Source: Agrobacterium larrymoorei
Lineage (GTDB): Bacteria > Pseudomonadota > Alphaproteobacteria > Rhizobiales > Rhizobiaceae
Direction of reading: 5' to 3'
Length of the DNA stretch: 64,000 nucleotides
NCBI RefSeq assembly: GCF_030819275.1
Contig: NZ_JAUTBL010000002.1
Span: 2,296,501 to 2,360,500, forward strand
The translations under genes were made by a program, and so were the position numbers. Below, piece by piece: positions 8,053-52,527 of this stretch; within the stretch, counting starts at the first letter, position 1; each line of letters opens with the position of its first letter. Under the pieces are notes generated by a model, which saw nothing but the letters and a program-made list of their open reading frames with translations, was not told where the DNA came from and did not search any database.

Positions 8053-9232
8053 TCAGGCCGCAGCCTTGGCAAGCGTTGCCTTCTGGGTTTCGAAGGCCCA
8101 CTTCAACCATGGCATCACAGCCTTCATGTCGGCCGTTTCGATGGTCGCACCAGCCCAGATACGAAGGCCCGATGGCGCGTCGCGGTAGGCACCGATATCG
8201 AGCGCCACATTTTCCTTTTCGAGAAGGGAAACCATGCCCTTGGCGAAATCGGCCTGTGCAGCCGCATCAAGGGCTGCAACATCCTTGCAGACGATCTTGA
8301 GGCAAACGGAGGTGTTGGAGCGCGTCTCATCGACAACCGCCAGATTGGCGATCCAGTTGTTTTCGGCCACGAAGTCGAAGATGACCTTGGCATTGGCGTC
8401 AGCACGCGCGATCAGCGCCTTCAGTCCGCCCAGGTTCTTCGCCCAGAGAAGCGCATCGATATAGTCTTCGACGCAGAGCATCGAAGGCGTGTTGATCGTC
8501 TCGCCCGGTGAAGATGCCTTCGATCAGCTTGCCGCCAGAGGTCATGCGGAAGATCTTCGGCAGCGGCCAGGCCGGTACATAGGTCGTCAGGCGCTCGACG
8601 GCGCGTGGCGACAGAATGATCACGCCATGGCCACCCTCGCCGCCCAGAACCTTCTGCCAGGAGAAAGTGACGACATCGAGCTTGGCGAAATCGAGATCCT
8701 GCGCGAATGCGGCAGAGGTCGCGTCGCAGATGGTGAGACCCTTGCGATCGGCAGGAATGAAATCGGCATTGGGAACACGAACACCCGATGTGGTGCCGTT
8801 CCAGGTGAAGACCACGTCGCGGTCGAAATCCACTTCGGACAGGTTCGGCAGGAAACCGTAATCGGCCTCGAACTTGCGAACATCCTTGAGCTTCAGCTGC
8901 TTGACGACATCGGTGACCCAGCCGGCACCGAAGCTCTCCCAGGCGAGCATGTCCACGCCGCGTTCGCCGAGCAGCGACCACAGGGCCATTTCAACGGCGC
9001 CGGTGTCGGATGCGGGAACGATACCGATACAATAATCGGCAGGAACGTTGAGAACTTCGCGGGTGAGATCGATGGCCTGCTTCAGCTTGGCTTTGCCAAC
9101 CTTGGCGCGATGCGAACGACCAAGCGGTGCATCGGCGAGAGCATCAAGCGACCAACCGGGGCGCTTCGAGCAGGGACCTGAAGAAAAATGCGTATTGCCT
9201 GGACGCACGTCCGGCTTCACTGTATCTGTCAT
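8053..9232 (-). pseudogene. serC: Phosphoserine aminotransferase SerC, interrupted by a single-base frameshift
   Basis: PLP enzyme converting 3-phosphohydroxypyruvate and glutamate to phosphoserine; also used in pyridoxal phosphate synthesis. The N-terminal part (starting [20 protein letters not shown]) is coherent to about residue 243 and contains the PLP-lysine motif [12 protein letters not shown]. It then reads [14 protein letters not shown], whereas the family continues [19 protein letters not shown]. That continuation is present one frame over (8053-8481, ending in WAFETQKATLAKAAA). Removing one base of the CCC at 8504-8506 restores a 392-residue protein of normal length. All other parts look intact, so the lesion is recent or a sequencing error. 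The gene heads the serC-serA operon behind a structured leader. Confidence 0.9.
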
Positions 9233-9234
9233 TT

Positions 9235-9290
9235 GACTATCCTTCCAGATAGGCGCTCCACGTTAGGGTGGAGTGTCCTGACGCCGTTGC
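9235..9290 (-). ncRNA. serC leader RNA motif (5' UTR cis-regulatory structure)
   Basis: On the minus strand directly ahead of the serC start codon, two adjacent helices can form. One is GGCG/CGCC (9282-9285 with 9252-9255) enclosing a perfect CTCCAC/GTGGAG hairpin (9268-9273 with 9256-9261). The second is CTATC/GATAG (9248-9252 with 9237-9241), whose loop TGGAAG contains the ribosome-binding site, three bases before the ATG region. This placement and shape match the serC RNA motif described in Alphaproteobacteria ahead of serC-serA operons. The family is known; its ligand, if any, is not established. Sequestration of the Shine-Dalgarno sequence suggests translational control. Confidence 0.7.
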
Positions 9291-9440: not shown

Positions 9441-10235
9441 TTACTTGTAAACGGCGGGCTGAACCGGAATATCGGCGGGCGGCATATACTGTGCGGTGTC
9501 GCAGCCGTTGAAGACATAGCGGCCACCGAGACGGACTTCATGCGAGGTCAGGCCCTTGTCGCGGCCAGGACCGGCAGCGCCGTTGAGACCGAACATTTCG
9601 CCTTGCCCGATCTGACGGAAGCGATAGCCGATATCGGCCTTGAAATCGCAGGTGACGTCAACCGAGGCGCCAGCCATCAGAGCGTAGGCGAAGCGCCAGT
9701 TGCTCTTGCCGTCGAACTCGCAGCAACCGGAATCGGTCCTGAACGTGTCCCACTTCACATAGGCGCCACCGATACCCGCGCCGACATAAGGCGTGACGCG
9801 GCCATAGGTGCCGAGATCGACATAGGCGTTCGCCATCAGGCCATAGGCCGTGAGCGAGGTGTGAGACGACAGGTCTGGTGCCGTGCCACGGAAGTTGGAT
9901 TTCGACAAATAATCGAAAGTCAGGTCGGTGCGCAGATAGTTGTTGATCTGGTAGCCCACACCTGCGCCAAAGAGGACGCTGTCCTTCTGGGACGCGCTGG
10001 TAAAGCTGACATCTTCCATCGCAGATGCCGACACCGCCCGGTTGAAGCTGCCGCCGCGGAACTTGTTGAAGGAATAGCCAACATCGCCACGCAGATACCA
10101 GCCGCTCGCTTCCTTCACCTGAATTTCCGGTGCAGTCTCAATGTAGGCTGGTGGGGCTGGTTGATAGACATCCGCAGCAAGTGCGTGTTGACCTGCCATC
10201 AGAGCGGCAACAATACCGATCAGGCTCTTCTTCAT
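9441..10235 (-). CDS. Outer-membrane beta-barrel protein, Omp25/Omp31-like
   Basis: A 264-residue porin-like protein with a signal peptide (MKKSLIGIVAALMAGQHALAA, cleavage before DVYQP), a short proline-rich linker, then a barrel beginning GWYLRGDVGYSFNKF, a start common to rhizobial small OMPs. Strands end near EVRLGGRYVF, followed by a tail with a cysteine and prolines instead of a terminal phenylalanine. Two adjacent cysteines (GCCEF) lie in a predicted loop. I chose the start at 10235 because it gives a proper signal peptide preceded by GGAG; the frame opens 19 codons earlier. A CtrA-like box lies 81-95 bases upstream. Confidence 0.85.
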   Translation of the reverse strand: MKKSLIGIVAALMAGQHALAADVYQPAPPAYIETAPEIQVKEASGWYLRGDVGYSFNKFRGGSFNRAVSASAMEDVSFTSASQKDSVLFGAGVGYQINNYLRTDLTFDYLSKSNFRGTAPDLSSHTSLTAYGLMANAYVDLGTYGRVTPYVGAGIGGAYVKWDTFRTDSGCCEFDGKSNWRFAYALMAGASVDVTCDFKADIGYRFRQIGQGEMFGLNGAAGPGRDKGLTSHEVRLGGRYVFNGCDTAQYMPPADIPVQPAVYK

Positions 10236-10315
10236 ATAGGTGGCTCCATAAGCGGCACACGCAAGTGGCGCGTACACCAGTGAATTCTTCACTTATGAAA
10301 CCTGAATGAAATTGG

Positions 10316-10330
10316 TTAAGTGACGATTAA
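10316..10330 (-). promoter_or_regulatory. Possible CtrA-binding box upstream of the porin gene
   Basis: TTAA at 10316-10319 and TTAA at 10327-10330 are separated by exactly seven bases, the full CtrA site layout. It lies 81-95 bases upstream of the porin start codon, in its promoter region. CtrA control of outer-membrane proteins is known in related Alphaproteobacteria; binding here is inferred from the motif only. Confidence 0.4.
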
Positions 10331-10737: not shown

Positions 10738-12689
10738 GTGAAAACAAATCTGAAAAGCATCTTCGACTTCGCGCCCACGCCACAGGACAATCCGGTGTTG
10801 TTGCGAGCGCAATATACGGCCTTCAGCCGGCAGATGCCGATGATGTACTTCATCCTGCTGTCCAGCACCTGGGCGCTGGCCCTGACCTATTTGGACGCCG
10901 CACCGAGGTTGCTGTCGCTTGGCGTTCCATCTGTCTTCACGGTCCTGTGCGGTGCGCGCATCCTCTTCTGGCTACGGTCTCGGGGTGAAACCCCTTCCAT
11001 TGCAGCCGTCGCGGCCACCATGCGGTGGATAAACATCCTCGGGGCAGGAATTGCCGCGGGCTTTACCACTTGGTCCTGCCTGCTCTACCCCTATGGCGAT
11101 GACTTCCAGAAGTCACACGTGGCCTTCTATATGGCGATCACCGTCATTTCCTGCATCTTTTGCATGATGCATGTGCGCTCTGCCGCCCTGATGGTGACGG
11201 CGATCGTCAACGGCACGTTCGTCGTCTTCTTCGCGTCCACCGGGCACATGACGCTGGTTGCCACGGCCATCAACATTCTGCTCGTCTGCTTCGGCATGCT
11301 GGTCGTGCTCAAGATCAACTACGACAATTTCGAGCAAATGGTGCTGGCCCAGCAGAAGACCGAAGCGCTGAGCAATGAGAACCTCAAGCTGGCCAACATC
11401 GATAGCCTCACCGAACTCCCCAATAGACGCGCATTCTTCCATCATCTCGACGCATGCTTCACGCTCGCCCAGGCCGAAAAGCACCGGCTGGCGGTGGGCG
11501 CGATCGATCTCGACGGCTTCAAACCCGTCAACGACCTTTACGGTCACTCCGCCGGCGACCGGCTCTTGAAAGAAGTCGGCAAGAGGCTGCAGGACGTGTG
11601 TAGCGCACAAGGCATCTTCCTGTCCCGCCTGGGTGGCGATGAGTTCGCCTTCATCATCTCCGGTCAAGTCAACGAGAATACTGTGCTTACCGCTGCCACA
11701 TGATGGGCGCCAAGCTTCGCATCCCCTTCGAAACGCCGGATGCCAAGATCATGATTTCCGCTTCGATCGGCATCGCCATCTATCCCGATGTCGCCTCGAC
11801 GCCCGAAGAACTCTTCGACCGCGCCGACTATGCACTTTACCAGAGCAAGCGGGAGCATCGCGGGAACAGCACGCTCTTCACCACCAAGCATATCGTCGAA
11901 ATCCACCGCGATGCGCGCGTCGAGCAGACGCTGCGACAGGCCGATCTCGCCAAAGAATTGTCGGTGGTCTATCAGCCGATCCTCGACGTCACCTCCGGCA
12001 AGACCGTCGGCTTCGAGGCGCTCGCGCGCTGGGAGAGCAGAGTTCTCGGAACGGTCGGGCCCGCACAATTCATCCCGATTGCCGAGCGCGCCGGCATCAT
12101 CAGCATGCTGACGAAACCGCTATTGAAACAGGCACTCGCTGCGGCAAAGACCTGGCCGAAGGATGTGCGCCTGTCCTTCAATCTCTCAGCCCAGGCTGTC
12201 AACAGCACGGAAGCCACGCTTGGCATCATCGCCATCATCGCCACCAGCGGCTTCGACCCCCAGCGGCTCGACCTGGAGATCACCGAAACAGCGATCATTC
12301 ACGACACCCGAAAGGCACGCAATTCCGTCGAGATGCTCCGAAAGATCGGCTGCGGCATTTCGCTCGACGATTTCGGCACCGGCTATTCGAGCCTGACCTC
12401 TCTGCACTCGCTCCCGCTGACCAAGCTCAAGATCGACCGGAGCTTCGTGAGAAACATTCAGGACAGTGCCGCAAGCTACAACATCGTCCGCTCGCTCCTG
12501 ACCCTCAGCCGCGAGATGGGCCTAAACACGATTGTCGAAGGCGTCGAAACCCAGGCCGAACTCGACGTCATCAAGACGCTCGGCGGAACGCTGGTGCAGG
12601 GCTACGTCTTCTCCCGACCGATCCAGACGGAGAAGGTGCACGCATTTCTGAACGGGGACTTGGAGGAGAGCCTTCAGAAGCGGGCGTGA
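10738..12689 (+). pseudogene. Membrane-anchored GGDEF-EAL protein split by a frameshift
   Basis: Cyclic-di-GMP turnover protein. The first reading frame (10738-11703, GTG start, 321 aa) has about five to six membrane helices, then a GGDEF domain from LANIDSLTELPNRRAFF to the active-site RLGGDEF near residue 298, and stops at a TGA inside the domain. The second (11700-12689, 329 aa) resumes with the rest of the GGDEF fold (SASIGIAIYP, RADYALYQSK) and a complete EAL domain with FEALARW, DDFGTGYSS and GVETQAELD. The two frames overlap by ATGA. A single inserted base near 11690-11697 would fuse them. Either the diguanylate cyclase half is lost, or two coupled polypeptides are made, or the base is a sequencing error. 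Confidence 0.8.
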
Positions 12690-37154: not shown

Positions 37155-37322
37155 AAGTAAAGTGCGTCCGCGACGACCGATGGAGATTTACGATCCTGGG
37201 TGCCTACAAAAGTAGGTGGGCACCGTGTGTCCAGCCCCACGAGGCCGGACAGGGACAGCTCCCTTTGGATCGAGTATGGCCCCAGGGATTGTGGTTCCTG
37301 TCGAGAAGCGCAGAACGCACTC
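37155..37322 (-). ncRNA. ssrS: 6S RNA (SsrS), RNA polymerase-binding regulator
   Basis: The minus strand folds as 6S RNA of about 165 nt. The closing stem pairs GUGCGU at the 5' end (37320-37315) with ACGCAC near the 3' end (37167-37162), extended by UC/GG and GCG/CGC around a single bulge. A large single-stranded bubble follows, then an upper stem GGGGCC/GGCCUC topped by AGGGA/UCCCU. A U-rich run follows the 3' arm. It lies directly downstream of zapA and near the 5-formyl-THF cyclo-ligase gene, the classical neighbours of ssrS. Known 6S RNA binds sigma-70 holoenzyme in stationary phase. Confidence 0.75.
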
Positions 37323-50183: not shown

Positions 50184-51467
50184 ATGAGCAGAAATATTCT
50201 ACCCGTATTCGCTCTTCTCACCAGCACCCTCTTCCTCTTCCTTGGCAATGGCCTGCAAGGCCTGCTTCTGCCGGTGCGCGGTTCGGAAGAAGGTTACTCC
50301 AACGAAGTGCTCGGTTTTCTCGGCACCTCCTGGGCGGCGGGCTTCGTCATCGGCTGTTTCGTCGCACCCGCCATCGTGCGCCGGGCTGGCCATATCCGTG
50401 CCTTCGGCAGCTTCGTCGCCGTCATCTGCCTCACCGTTCTCCTGACCGGGCTCTTCATCGACGACGTCTCCTGGGTGGCCCTGCGTGCCCTGACCGGTTT
50501 CTGCACCGCCGGAACCTCGATGATCATCGAAAGCTGGCTGAACGAGCGCGCCACCAATGAAAGCCGCGGTGCGATCTTCTCGCTCTATATCGCCATTACG
50601 CTCTTCGGCGTGGTAGCCGGACAGCTCGTCATTCCCTTCGGCCATGTGGGCAATACATCGCTCTTCATGGTCTGCGCCATCATCTATTGCGTCGCGATCC
50701 TTCCCGCCATGCTTTCCAAGGCGGAAAGCCCGCAGCCGCTAAAGAAGGTCAAGCTCGATCTGCCGGCGCTCTACCGCAATTCACCCGTGTCCTTCGTCGG
50801 CATCCTGCTGGTCGGCATCGCCAATGGCGCCTATGGCACGCTGGCTGCCGTCTTTGGCGCGCGTGCGGGTCTTGACCCCACCACCATCGCCATCATGGTC
50901 AGTTCCACCATCTTCGTCGGCGCACTCGCCCAATTTCCGGCGGGCAAGCTGTCCGACCGCATCGACCGTCGTTTCGTGCTGGCAGGCCTCTCGGCGCTCG
51001 CCGCCGTTGCAGGCCTTGCGATCGCGATCATCCACCCAACACATGTCTATGTGCTGATCGGAATGATCTGCGTTTATGGTGCCGCCGCCAATGCGCTCTA
51101 CCCGATTGCGGTCGCACATGCCAACGACTTCGCCTCCTCGGAAGATTTCGTCAAAGTCTCAGGCGGCCTGCTCCTGCTTTACGGCATCGGCACTATTATA
51201 GGTCCGACGCTTGGTGGACCGATCATGACATCCTTCGGTCCTTACGCATTGTTTCTGGTCACGGCGGTTTCGCATCTTCTGATTACGGCCTACTCTATCT
51301 TCCGCTCAAGGCAGCGCGCTGCACTCACCACTGCGGAAAAGGACAACTTCTCCACCATGCCAACGGCCCCCGCGCCGCTCTTGACACCGGAGAGTGCCTC
51401 GCTTGACCCCAGAGCACCGCAATATCCTGAAGAGGAAGCAGATTTGCAGAAGGGAGCAGGAATATGA
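50184..51467 (+). CDS. MFS transporter, YcaD/UMF3-like
   Basis: A 427-residue major facilitator superfamily permease with twelve helices. Visible hallmarks are GFLGTSWAAGFVIGCFVAP near residue 46, a second-half GKLSDRIDRRFVL signature near 255 (the loop 8-9 equivalent of the family motif), and a polar, proline-rich C-terminal tail. The tail overlaps the next gene start by four bases. Substrate unknown; the group resembles YcaD-type uncharacterised transporters. Confidence 0.88.
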   Translation: MSRNILPVFALLTSTLFLFLGNGLQGLLLPVRGSEEGYSNEVLGFLGTSWAAGFVIGCFVAPAIVRRAGHIRAFGSFVAVICLTVLLTGLFIDDVSWVALRALTGFCTAGTSMIIESWLNERATNESRGAIFSLYIAITLFGVVAGQLVIPFGHVGNTSLFMVCAIIYCVAILPAMLSKAESPQPLKKVKLDLPALYRNSPVSFVGILLVGIANGAYGTLAAVFGARAGLDPTTIAIMVSSTIFVGALAQFPAGKLSDRIDRRFVLAGLSALAAVAGLAIAIIHPTHVYVLIGMICVYGAAANALYPIAVAHANDFASSEDFVKVSGGLLLLYGIGTIIGPTLGGPIMTSFGPYALFLVTAVSHLLITAYSIFRSRQRAALTTAEKDNFSTMPTAPAPLLTPESASLDPRAPQYPEEEADLQKGAGI

Positions 51468-51661
51468 GTATCTTTGACGACGATCTTCCGCAAAAGCAGA
51501 ACATCACCCACATTATCGGCGCCGATCTGACGCTGCTTTCCGTGGATGATCTGACCGCTCGCATCAATATTCTGACGGCCGAGATTGAGCGGCTGGAGGG
51601 CGAGAGGGAGAAGAAATCGGCGGGCCGCAAGGCGGCTGAAAACCTGTTTCGCACGAGATGA
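51464..51661 (+). CDS. DUF1192 small protein
   Basis: A 65-residue protein starting MSIFDDDLPQKQNITHIIGAD, the DUF1192 family of Alphaproteobacteria. The C-terminal half is a charged coiled coil (LTARINILTAEIERLEGERE). Function unknown. Start and stop overlap the MFS gene end by ATGA, so the two are coupled. Confidence 0.85.
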   Translation: MSIFDDDLPQKQNITHIIGADLTLLSVDDLTARINILTAEIERLEGEREKKSAGRKAAENLFRTR

Positions 51662-51714
51662 GCTCGGCAACGCCGAACAAACGTTAGCCCCGCGGCACAG
51701 TTTTTCATTTACCA

Positions 51715-51729
51715 TTAACCAAATATTAA
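51715..51729 (+). promoter_or_regulatory. CtrA-binding box, upstream copy
   Basis: TTAA at 51715-51718 and TTAA at 51726-51729 are separated by exactly seven bases. A -10-like CTATAC (51746-51751) follows 16 bases later, placing the box over the -35 region, as in CtrA-activated promoters. The probable transcript is the small RNA candidate at 51755-51853. Confidence 0.55.
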
Positions 51730-51754
51730 GCTTTCTAAGAGATTACTATACATG

Positions 51755-51853
51755 TTCAGTTCTGCTGAACCTCAGGCAGTTTCTCCTATCGGCGAATTGG
51801 TCTGATTTTTCTCCCTGTTTTACCTTGAGAGCCGCTTTTGCGGCTCTTTTTTT
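51755..51853 (+). ncRNA. Candidate small RNA with hairpin start and terminator end
   Basis: The interval has no frame. Near its 5' end is a perfect GTTCAG/CTGAAC hairpin (51754-51770). A pyrimidine-rich, probably unpaired middle (TTTCTCCTAT, TTTTTCTCCC) resembles anti-Shine-Dalgarno segments of base-pairing RNAs. The 3' end is a classic terminator: AGAGCCGC/GCGGCTCT (51828-51847) followed by seven T. A promoter with a CtrA box over the -35 lies just upstream. It could instead be a long leader of the DUF1465 gene with an attenuator, but the strong terminator argues for a free RNA of about 100 nt. Confidence 0.55.
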
Positions 51854-51854
51854 A
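51828..51854 (+). terminator. Rho-independent terminator of the small RNA candidate
   Basis: An 8-bp perfect stem (51828-51835 with 51840-51847) with a TTTT loop is followed by a run of T. Because the DUF1192 stop lies 167 bases upstream, it more likely ends a separate short transcript. Confidence 0.85.
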
Positions 51855-51885
51855 TTCTGTTGGAAAACCCGTAAAACTGTGGGTA

Positions 51886-51900
51886 TTAACCTTTCTTTAA
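51886..51900 (+). promoter_or_regulatory. CtrA-binding box upstream of the RcdA-like gene
   Basis: TTAA at 51886-51889 and TTAA at 51897-51900 are separated by exactly seven bases, the full CtrA site. It is 115-129 bases upstream of the DUF1465 (RcdA-like) start. In Caulobacter and Brucella, rcdA is a CtrA target, so direct control is plausible here. Confidence 0.6.
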
Positions 51901-52014
51901 TAATCAGCTTGCGCATTTGCGGTATTGGTATCATCCTGAAAATACAAAGGCCGGAACAATTCACCCGCTAACTCCGTTGCCTCACCGTATCATGCGTAAG
52001 CAGGGATTAAAGAA

Positions 52015-52527
52015 ATGTCGGAACAGGTTTTGAATACCATCAGCTTCGCCGGCCGCGCCGCAGCCTCGAACCAGTTCAAGACTCTCTATGCCGAAGGCAT
52101 GGGCCTTGTGGAAGAAACGGCAAGCTACCTCGATGGCTCCGGTCGTGCTGCATCGAAGGTGCTGCCACGTATGGCCTCGGTTCTCTACGCCGCAGAATCC
52201 ATGCGCCTCACCACGCGCCTGATGCAGATGGCCTCCTGGCTGCTTCTGCAGCGCGCCGTCAACAATGGCGAGATGACCCGCGATCAGGTTCTCAGCGAAA
52301 AGAACAAGGTCCGCCTCGACAACTTCAACGTCGATCGCAACGCTCCAGGCTGGAATGACCTGCCTGAATCCTTCCGCGACCTCGTCGAGCGCTCGCTCCG
52401 CCTCCAGAACCGCGTTGCCCTTCTCGACCGCGAAATTTACCGCCCGTCGGAAGCAAAGGTTCCCGACAACGAGAACAGCGTTCAGGCTCAGCTCAACCTG
52501 CTGCGCACGGCATTCAACAGCAACTGA
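52015..52527 (+). CDS. RcdA-like protein (DUF1465)
   Basis: A 170-residue helical protein of the DUF1465 family, which includes RcdA of Caulobacter, an adaptor that helps ClpXP destroy the master regulator CtrA at the cell pole. Conserved parts include FKTLYAEGMGLVEETASYLDG, RLTTRLMQMASWLLLQRAVNNGEM, and the charged SLRLQNRVALLDREIY. The CtrA boxes upstream fit an RcdA role. The ATG at 52015 follows AAAGAA. A terminator lies after the stop. Confidence 0.88.
   Translation: MSEQVLNTISFAGRAAASNQFKTLYAEGMGLVEETASYLDGSGRAASKVLPRMASVLYAAESMRLTTRLMQMASWLLLQRAVNNGEMTRDQVLSEKNKVRLDNFNVDRNAPGWNDLPESFRDLVERSLRLQNRVALLDREIYRPSEAKVPDNENSVQAQLNLLRTAFNSN

Follow-up and report, generated by a model that had tools for sequence, protein, structure and literature searches.

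A conserved small RNA gene upstream of rcdA in Agrobacterium larrymoorei is a predicted member of the CtrA regulon

Upstream of the rcdA-like gene of Agrobacterium larrymoorei, two full CtrA-type boxes flank a candidate short transcript, which raises the question of which gene these boxes serve. A sequence-only reading of this DNA had proposed a negative-feedback module, in which CtrA would drive its own adaptor RcdA and also a small RNA (sRNA). We analysed the locus in a window of 64,000 nucleotides, which is the whole stretch of DNA considered here, and in related genomes. In our judgement the locus probably holds a stand-alone sRNA gene that precedes rcdA and belongs to the CtrA regulon; it would be activated by CtrA, and its RNA would pair with mRNAs. 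The gene order is an MFS transporter gene, a DUF1192 gene, box 1, the sRNA, box 2 and the DUF1465 gene (rcdA), with rpmE on the opposite strand, and the features are the following.

51464..51661, + strand: gene for a DUF1192 protein (65 aa), the upstream neighbour (PF06698, 79.1 bits)
51715..51729, + strand: CtrA-type box 1, TTAACCAAATATTAA, an exact TTAA-N7-TTAA and putative sRNA promoter
51744..51749, + strand: possible -10 element TACTAT, proposed from the sequence
51754..51854, + strand: small RNA of the BjrC1505 / Sm84-SmelC671 type (RF02356, our own model and the fold)
51754..51770, + strand: stem-loop 1 (MFE structure; 3 of 6 pairs of the equivalent helix changed on both sides in 32 relatives)
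51772..51805, + strand: stem-loop 2 (MFE structure; 3 of 5 pairs of the equivalent helix changed on both sides in relatives)
51806..51826, + strand: unpaired stretch (MFE and centroid) with CUCCCUGUU (51811-51819), the proposed mRNA-pairing site
51827..51848, + strand: intrinsic terminator stem-loop, then a T tract (5 of 8 pairs of the equivalent helix changed on both sides)
51886..51900, + strand: CtrA-type box 2, TTAACCTTTCTTTAA, rcdA-proximal, an exact TTAA-N7-TTAA
51908..51913, + strand: possible rcdA -35 element CTTGCG, 7 nt after box 2, with a putative promoter role
52015..52527, + strand: rcdA-like gene, DUF1465, 170 aa

The downstream gene had been called RcdA-like, and this identity is confirmed: PF07323 matches residues 14-167 of 170 at 203.9 bits, the DUF1465 domain spanning the whole length of the protein. 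The same model also matches Caulobacter vibrioides, one of our control genomes. A ctrA gene is present in the window's genome (G000:C2:2257185-2257862). By RcdA, the nearest genome (99%) among the best 80 of 514 named Rhizobiaceae is that of Agrobacterium cavarae.

Both TTAA-N7-TTAA sites are exact and lie where they had been reported. Three exact boxes occur in the window, against 0.14 expected from shuffles. The whole genome contains 45 such sites against 43 for the reversed pattern, which is no enrichment, so a single box alone carries no weight. The third box of the window, at 10316-10330, lies between an Omp25/31-like open reading frame (9441-10292, - strand) and a GGDEF-type one that starts at 10738 (+ strand), both named by eye from their translations.

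We found rcdA in 119 of 121 genomes of the family and took 110 loci, the window's genome included (L001-L110). Within 450 nt ahead of rcdA we counted 160 TTAA-N7-TTAA sites, spread over 97 of the 110 loci. Any other spacing between N3 and N12 was seen in 1 to 5 loci, and Markov-simulated sequences gave 1.5 loci on average. On these counts, the boxes upstream of rcdA are not due to chance; they are N7-specific and conserved across genera. An sRNA core was recognisable in 104 of the 110 loci, that is all except L037, L039, L040, L043, L065 and L110; for L037, L040 and L065 the match to the Rfam family RF02356 (BjrC1505) is located elsewhere in the genome. Within the 104 loci, box 1 is exact in 73 and has at most one mismatch in 99 (N6 control, 1 and 29), and box 2 is exact in 84 and has at most one mismatch in 90; the controls for box 2 are 4 and 19 with N6, and 1 and 44 with N8, this last value being high. 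Both boxes are exact in 65 of the 104 loci, and the conservation of the pair in Rhizobiaceae relatives, which had been put forward as a check, was thus observed. Among the best 80 of 514 named Rhizobiaceae (no named S. meliloti locus is among these 80), the proximal box is exact in all 80 and two exact boxes are present in 67, 48 of them counted by script and 19 read from the listing where the sRNA anchor failed. The remaining 13 offer at best a distal match with one mismatch, which is possibly a chance one in some genomes.

These data also bear on the idea that a regulator other than CtrA binds the boxes, or that they are AT-rich parts of promoters, kept for a different reason. Such an idea would be compatible with a simple motif that shows no genome-wide enrichment; however, the spacing is strictly N7 while the inner bases vary, in family and order loci alike, and ChIP-seq in S. 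meliloti puts CtrA at the rcdA promoter (PMC4433202). We consider this explanation very unlikely and infer that CtrA is the protein that binds.

What lies between the boxes had been described as a candidate sRNA. The RF02356 model covers it entirely (positions 1-140 of 140) with a score of 34.0 bits, under the gathering score of 50. Scores of close relatives at the same place straddle this cut-off, 66 of 121 family genomes being above it. We therefore relied on position and on a model of our own, R1, built from 32 loci of relatives without those nearest the window (L001-L026); R1 matches the window at 54 bits over 51739-51853, with a rough E value of 8e-11. Judged by its position and this independent model, the window's sRNA is real and is a divergent member of RF02356. 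Its 5' end is a presumed one, giving about 100 nt as in SmelC671, and its 3' end was placed in the T tract. RF02356 matches were found in 96 of 121 genomes of the family, 166 of 199 of the order and 25 of 240 of the class, and in none of 14 control genomes, Caulobacter vibrioides among them.

The window RNA is predicted to fold into three stem-loops, with a folding z of -5.47, the window's own version of stem-loop 2 being diverged. In the 32 relatives, 11 of 19 pairs have changed on both sides, whereas shuffles gave a mean of 3.8 and none of 500 was as high; all three helices contribute to this count, which was made on the relatives, the window not being included. The sliding control (95.6% of cells paired, against 28-49% for slid structures) favours the structure, since we selected by hand, out of 135, the 32 sequences that aligned cleanly, and wrote the structure by hand from the same 32. 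The compensatory changes support the three stem-loops and, together with the R1 match, the RNA itself; selection on the RNA structure is what the alignment indicates. Loop and spacer lengths vary freely, which argues against a coding stretch. RNAalifold on 136 sequences recovered the terminator only, and a hairpin scan (88 of 136 against 69 expected) was uninformative, its windows being badly placed. In the unpaired stretch, CTCCCTG is nearly invariant in alignment A1; the same motif was described for RFMSmelC671 (PMC3927594).

The founding paper of BjrC1505 is reportedly that of Madhugiri in 2012. In S. meliloti, SmelC671 is an RNA of 100 nt at 2986421-2986520 on the + strand (PMC7143759, Table 1), detected by RNA-seq and earlier as sm84 (PMC2873474, PMC2573895); sm84 was placed between SMc03988 and SMc03989, and we read its band as about 80 nt (PMC2573895), and a sigma-70 promoter was predicted for it (Valverde 2008, PMC2573895). 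The 6S RNA of S. meliloti, at 2972090-2972252 on the - strand, is 14.2 kb away from SmelC671 (PMC7143759, PMC2873474). In the window, the 6S RNA is at 37162-37319 on the - strand, 14.4 kb from the sRNA, with the same orientations. The serC leader (window 9232-9283), used with the 6S RNA as a position marker, lies on the same side in both species, at 42 kb here and 48 kb in S. meliloti. By this conserved position relative to published coordinates, the window's sRNA is the ortholog of Sm84/SmelC671, whose counterpart in R. etli is ReC71. The literature that we found gives no function for Sm84/SmelC671 and nowhere joins its names with that of BjrC1505; both are brought here under one identity. 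CtrA is not mentioned in the accessible text of two Sm84/SmelC671 papers (PMC3927594, PMC2573895).

Other known sRNAs were considered and rejected. The match to MmgR (suhB, RF00519) is weak, 26.9 bits for a cut-off of 41, and scores under that of RF02356; a CUCCCU stretch and a terminator are common to both RNAs, and the S. meliloti locus is a different one (SmelC689, PMC7143759). SorY and the other Rfam matches are weaker and also below cut-off. GspR (SmelC775) and EcpR1 (SmelC291) are rhizobial cell-cycle sRNAs with other targets and other loci, between SMc03844 and SMc03845 for GspR (PMC5928217) and downstream of divK-pleD for EcpR1 (PMC4414408).

The two boxes differ in how far they are conserved. 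We chose, from other families of the order, 40 loci with an sRNA adjoining rcdA. Their sRNA-promoter box is exact in 17 and has at most one mismatch in 38, being inexact in 23 of the 40; the controls are 0 and 8 for N6, 2 and 3 for N8, and 0 and 10 for N9. Between the sRNA and rcdA of the same 40 loci, no exact box was found, and boxes with at most one mismatch (7/40) equal the N6 control (7/40). In addition, 11 sRNAs are not next to rcdA: those of L151-L153 and L155 are at another place in the genome, that of L154 is some 1.4 kb distant, and L156-L161 come from genomes in which no DUF1465 gene was matched. All 11 keep the box after the move, 6 exactly and 5 with one mismatch; the controls with at most one mismatch are 2 for N6 and 2 for N8. 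Since these counts give 38/40 for the sRNA box against a control-level 7/40 for the other, and 11/11 for the displaced copies, the sRNA box is the conserved site in the order, and box 2 is restricted to the family in our sample. CtrA control of the sRNA, as predicted from these alignments, looks like the conserved link. Seven sRNA loci outside the order have a box as well, exact in 3 and with one mismatch in 4.

Two second copies of the sRNA were also seen, L162 and L163 (genomes G143 and G215); the box of L162 has one mismatch, and L163 has lost its box and has a changed terminator. Outside the order, L166, L167 and L168 have both an exact box and a match to RF02356; at least in L166 and L167 the next gene, named by eye, is metY-like (O-acetylhomoserine sulfhydrylase) and not rcdA.

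The displaced copies also bear on the possibility that the RNA is a terminated leader of rcdA, in which transcription from box 1 would normally stop at 51848 and sometimes read into rcdA; CtrA would then set rcdA by attenuation, with the sRNA as a by-product. Among the matches listed (142 for the RNA and 127 for DUF1465), 125 of the 127 order genomes that have both carry the sRNA at most 1.1 kb upstream of rcdA in the same orientation, and agrobacterial rcdA (atu3742), with a CtrA site upstream, has several starts in all three lineages (PMC10469942); both observations suit a leader. However, the 11 displaced sRNAs have retained both the promoter box and the terminator, and in six of these genomes (L156-L161) PF07323 gave no DUF1465 match. 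The terminator is the best-kept helix, paired in 97.7% of cells, and the single-stranded CUCCCUG is nearly invariant and would be unnecessary for attenuation. A leader is in our view unlikely, and we retain a stand-alone sRNA gene.

We then considered whether CtrA would activate or repress this gene. A scan of both strands of 51400-52100 for a sigma-70 consensus promoter found none. The geometry of the promoter is fixed: of 90 promoters with an exact box, 82 have a recognised stem-loop 1, and in 76 of these the stem-loop begins 23-25 nt past the box. The Rfam model itself includes the box, because it extends about 45 nt beyond stem-loop 1 on the upstream side. If the transcript starts at stem-loop 1, as one of 100 nt would, box 1 begins at -39, so that a conserved TTAA-N7-TTAA lies near -35 of the presumed start. 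A box that covers the core promoter can block polymerase, and box 1 might accordingly be an operator, the RNA being made when CtrA is absent, in S phase. In Caulobacter, a CtrA motif at -14 is associated with repression, and full motifs starting near -35, in one case at -39, are associated with activation (PMC4287350). The position given here depends on a 5' end taken from stem-loop 1, which leaves some room for an operator; however, -39 is an activation position, and a separate -35 consensus is absent, as expected if CtrA is needed. Repression is in our opinion quite improbable, and we infer that CtrA activates the sRNA.

The steps of such an activation would be as follows. Phosphorylated CtrA would bind box 1, which would substitute for a -35 element, and would switch on an RNA of about 100 nt with three stem-loops and its own terminator. 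Its unpaired CUCCCUGUU would pair with mRNAs near their ribosome-binding sites and lower their translation. Box 2 would be a second CtrA site, which in the family may act on rcdA or merely add occupancy. GCTTGCG is prominent in the consensus of 89 proximal boxes. Because it lies 7 nt ahead of the conserved CTTGCG, box 2 would be more distant from the rcdA start.

How much then remains of a module in which RcdA and the sRNA are both raised by CtrA and in turn lower it? The statement that rcdA is a CtrA target in Caulobacter agrees with its listing as such (PMC4287350), and CtrA control of rcdA was predicted in cluster A (PMC2877005). In S. meliloti, CtrA was found by ChIP-seq at the rcdA promoter, the box not being specified, and RcdA, reported as an adaptor for ClpXP degradation of CtrA, lowers CtrA (PMC4433202). 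An sRNA that lowers ctrA, GspR, is also known in Sinorhizobium, at another locus (PMC5928217). That CtrA drives its own adaptor is favoured by the exact box 2 in 84 of 104 family loci, but box 2 is at control level in the 40 order loci, none exact, and rcdA mRNA is unchanged on CtrA depletion in S. meliloti (PMC4433202). The module is thus partly supported: its parts, namely boxes, sRNA and an RcdA-type gene, are present, and it is the link from CtrA to rcdA that is weakened.

The link from the sRNA to ctrA was examined by pairing, with the ctrA start located in 28 of 30 loci (not in G004 and G039); here and below, the null comes from plain shuffling of the letters, and the genomes compared are related. 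We rejected ctrA as a direct target at its start: none of 24 genomes showed pairing of at least 7 nt in -40..-1 (0.07 of trials under the null). Further upstream, 7 nt are reached in 7/24 (null 0.22), and 9 nt in 2/24 (null 0.014), that is in two genomes only. An unrestricted duplex calculation on ctrA was discarded, as it allowed very long bulged duplexes. The pairing data also argue against the complete module, which we hold to be improbable.

The stand-alone sRNA gene offers, as far as genome comparison goes, one account of several published observations. The conserved sRNA box could explain why CtrA is at the rcdA promoter of S. meliloti when rcdA mRNA does not change. One study scanned CtrA motifs upstream of protein-coding genes and reported one for rcdA (PMC3616915). 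In rhizobia and agrobacteria, such CtrA sites and the extra starts attributed to rcdA may instead be those of the sRNA. The words "small RNA" and "non-coding" are absent from the accessible text of PMC4433202, and one review mentions sm84 and CtrA in separate passages of its accessible part (PMC7143759). For BjrC1505, SmelC671 and sm84, the literature searched, which did not cover subscription papers, contains no statement linking the sRNA with CtrA or rcdA. The sRNA family is thus known, and what is new, within the searchable literature, is its predicted membership of the CtrA regulon, which provides a putative regulator for a widely conserved alphaproteobacterial sRNA that had been an orphan.

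The described example of a CtrA-controlled cell-cycle sRNA is CcnA of Caulobacter crescentus, whose clear homolog was not detected in S. meliloti according to the accessible text of the CcnA paper (PMC8959179). The RF02356 model has no match in the Caulobacter control genome. As a speculation that we find rather unlikely, the CtrA-activated sRNA would be present throughout the order Hyphomicrobiales as the functional counterpart of CcnA: when CtrA is high, it would shut the ribosome-binding sites of growth genes (cdnL in the family, rcdA in the window's close relatives), slow growth and delay the destruction of CtrA, which would be a positive feedback.

Candidate targets were also sought. The seed ACAGGGAG, complementary to the sRNA, followed by N1-18 and ATG occurs at 17 places in the window's own genome, against 10 for the backward control, and 5 lead to open reading frames of at least 45 aa. 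Two of these five were examined further, cdnL and an Omp25/31-like gene. The cdnL gene, for a CarD-type RNA polymerase regulator, has AACAGGGAG-type complementarity ahead of its start codon, with AACAGGGAGTTT in its leader at G000:C2:2855307-2855329 (loci L187 and L225). Of the family genomes, 17 of 30 have ACAGGGAG at cdnL. It is absent from all 19 genomes of the rest of the order and all 10 of the class in which a start was located, loci lacking one having been left out of the scan (9 of 28 and 19 of 29, respectively). Pairing between cdnL and the sRNA reaches 9 nt in 13 of 23 pairs (null 0.003). Three genomes in which no sRNA was found (G005, G006 and G026) have no cdnL seed, and several sRNA-bearing genomes have none either. 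Given the letter-shuffle null, the relatedness of the genomes and the choice of cdnL for its seed in the window's genome, this gene is a lead only, that is a candidate target at family level; no target site was found conserved over the range of the sRNA. At rcdA, 8 of 23 close relatives show pairing of at least 7 nt (null 0.04), as do 14 of 73 others (null 0.06).

An Omp25/31-like gene was rejected as a conserved target, its relatives being present in 9 of 31 family genomes. It lies at G000:C2:2296472-2297122, starts 29 bases before the window and carries ACAGGGAG at its ribosome-binding site.
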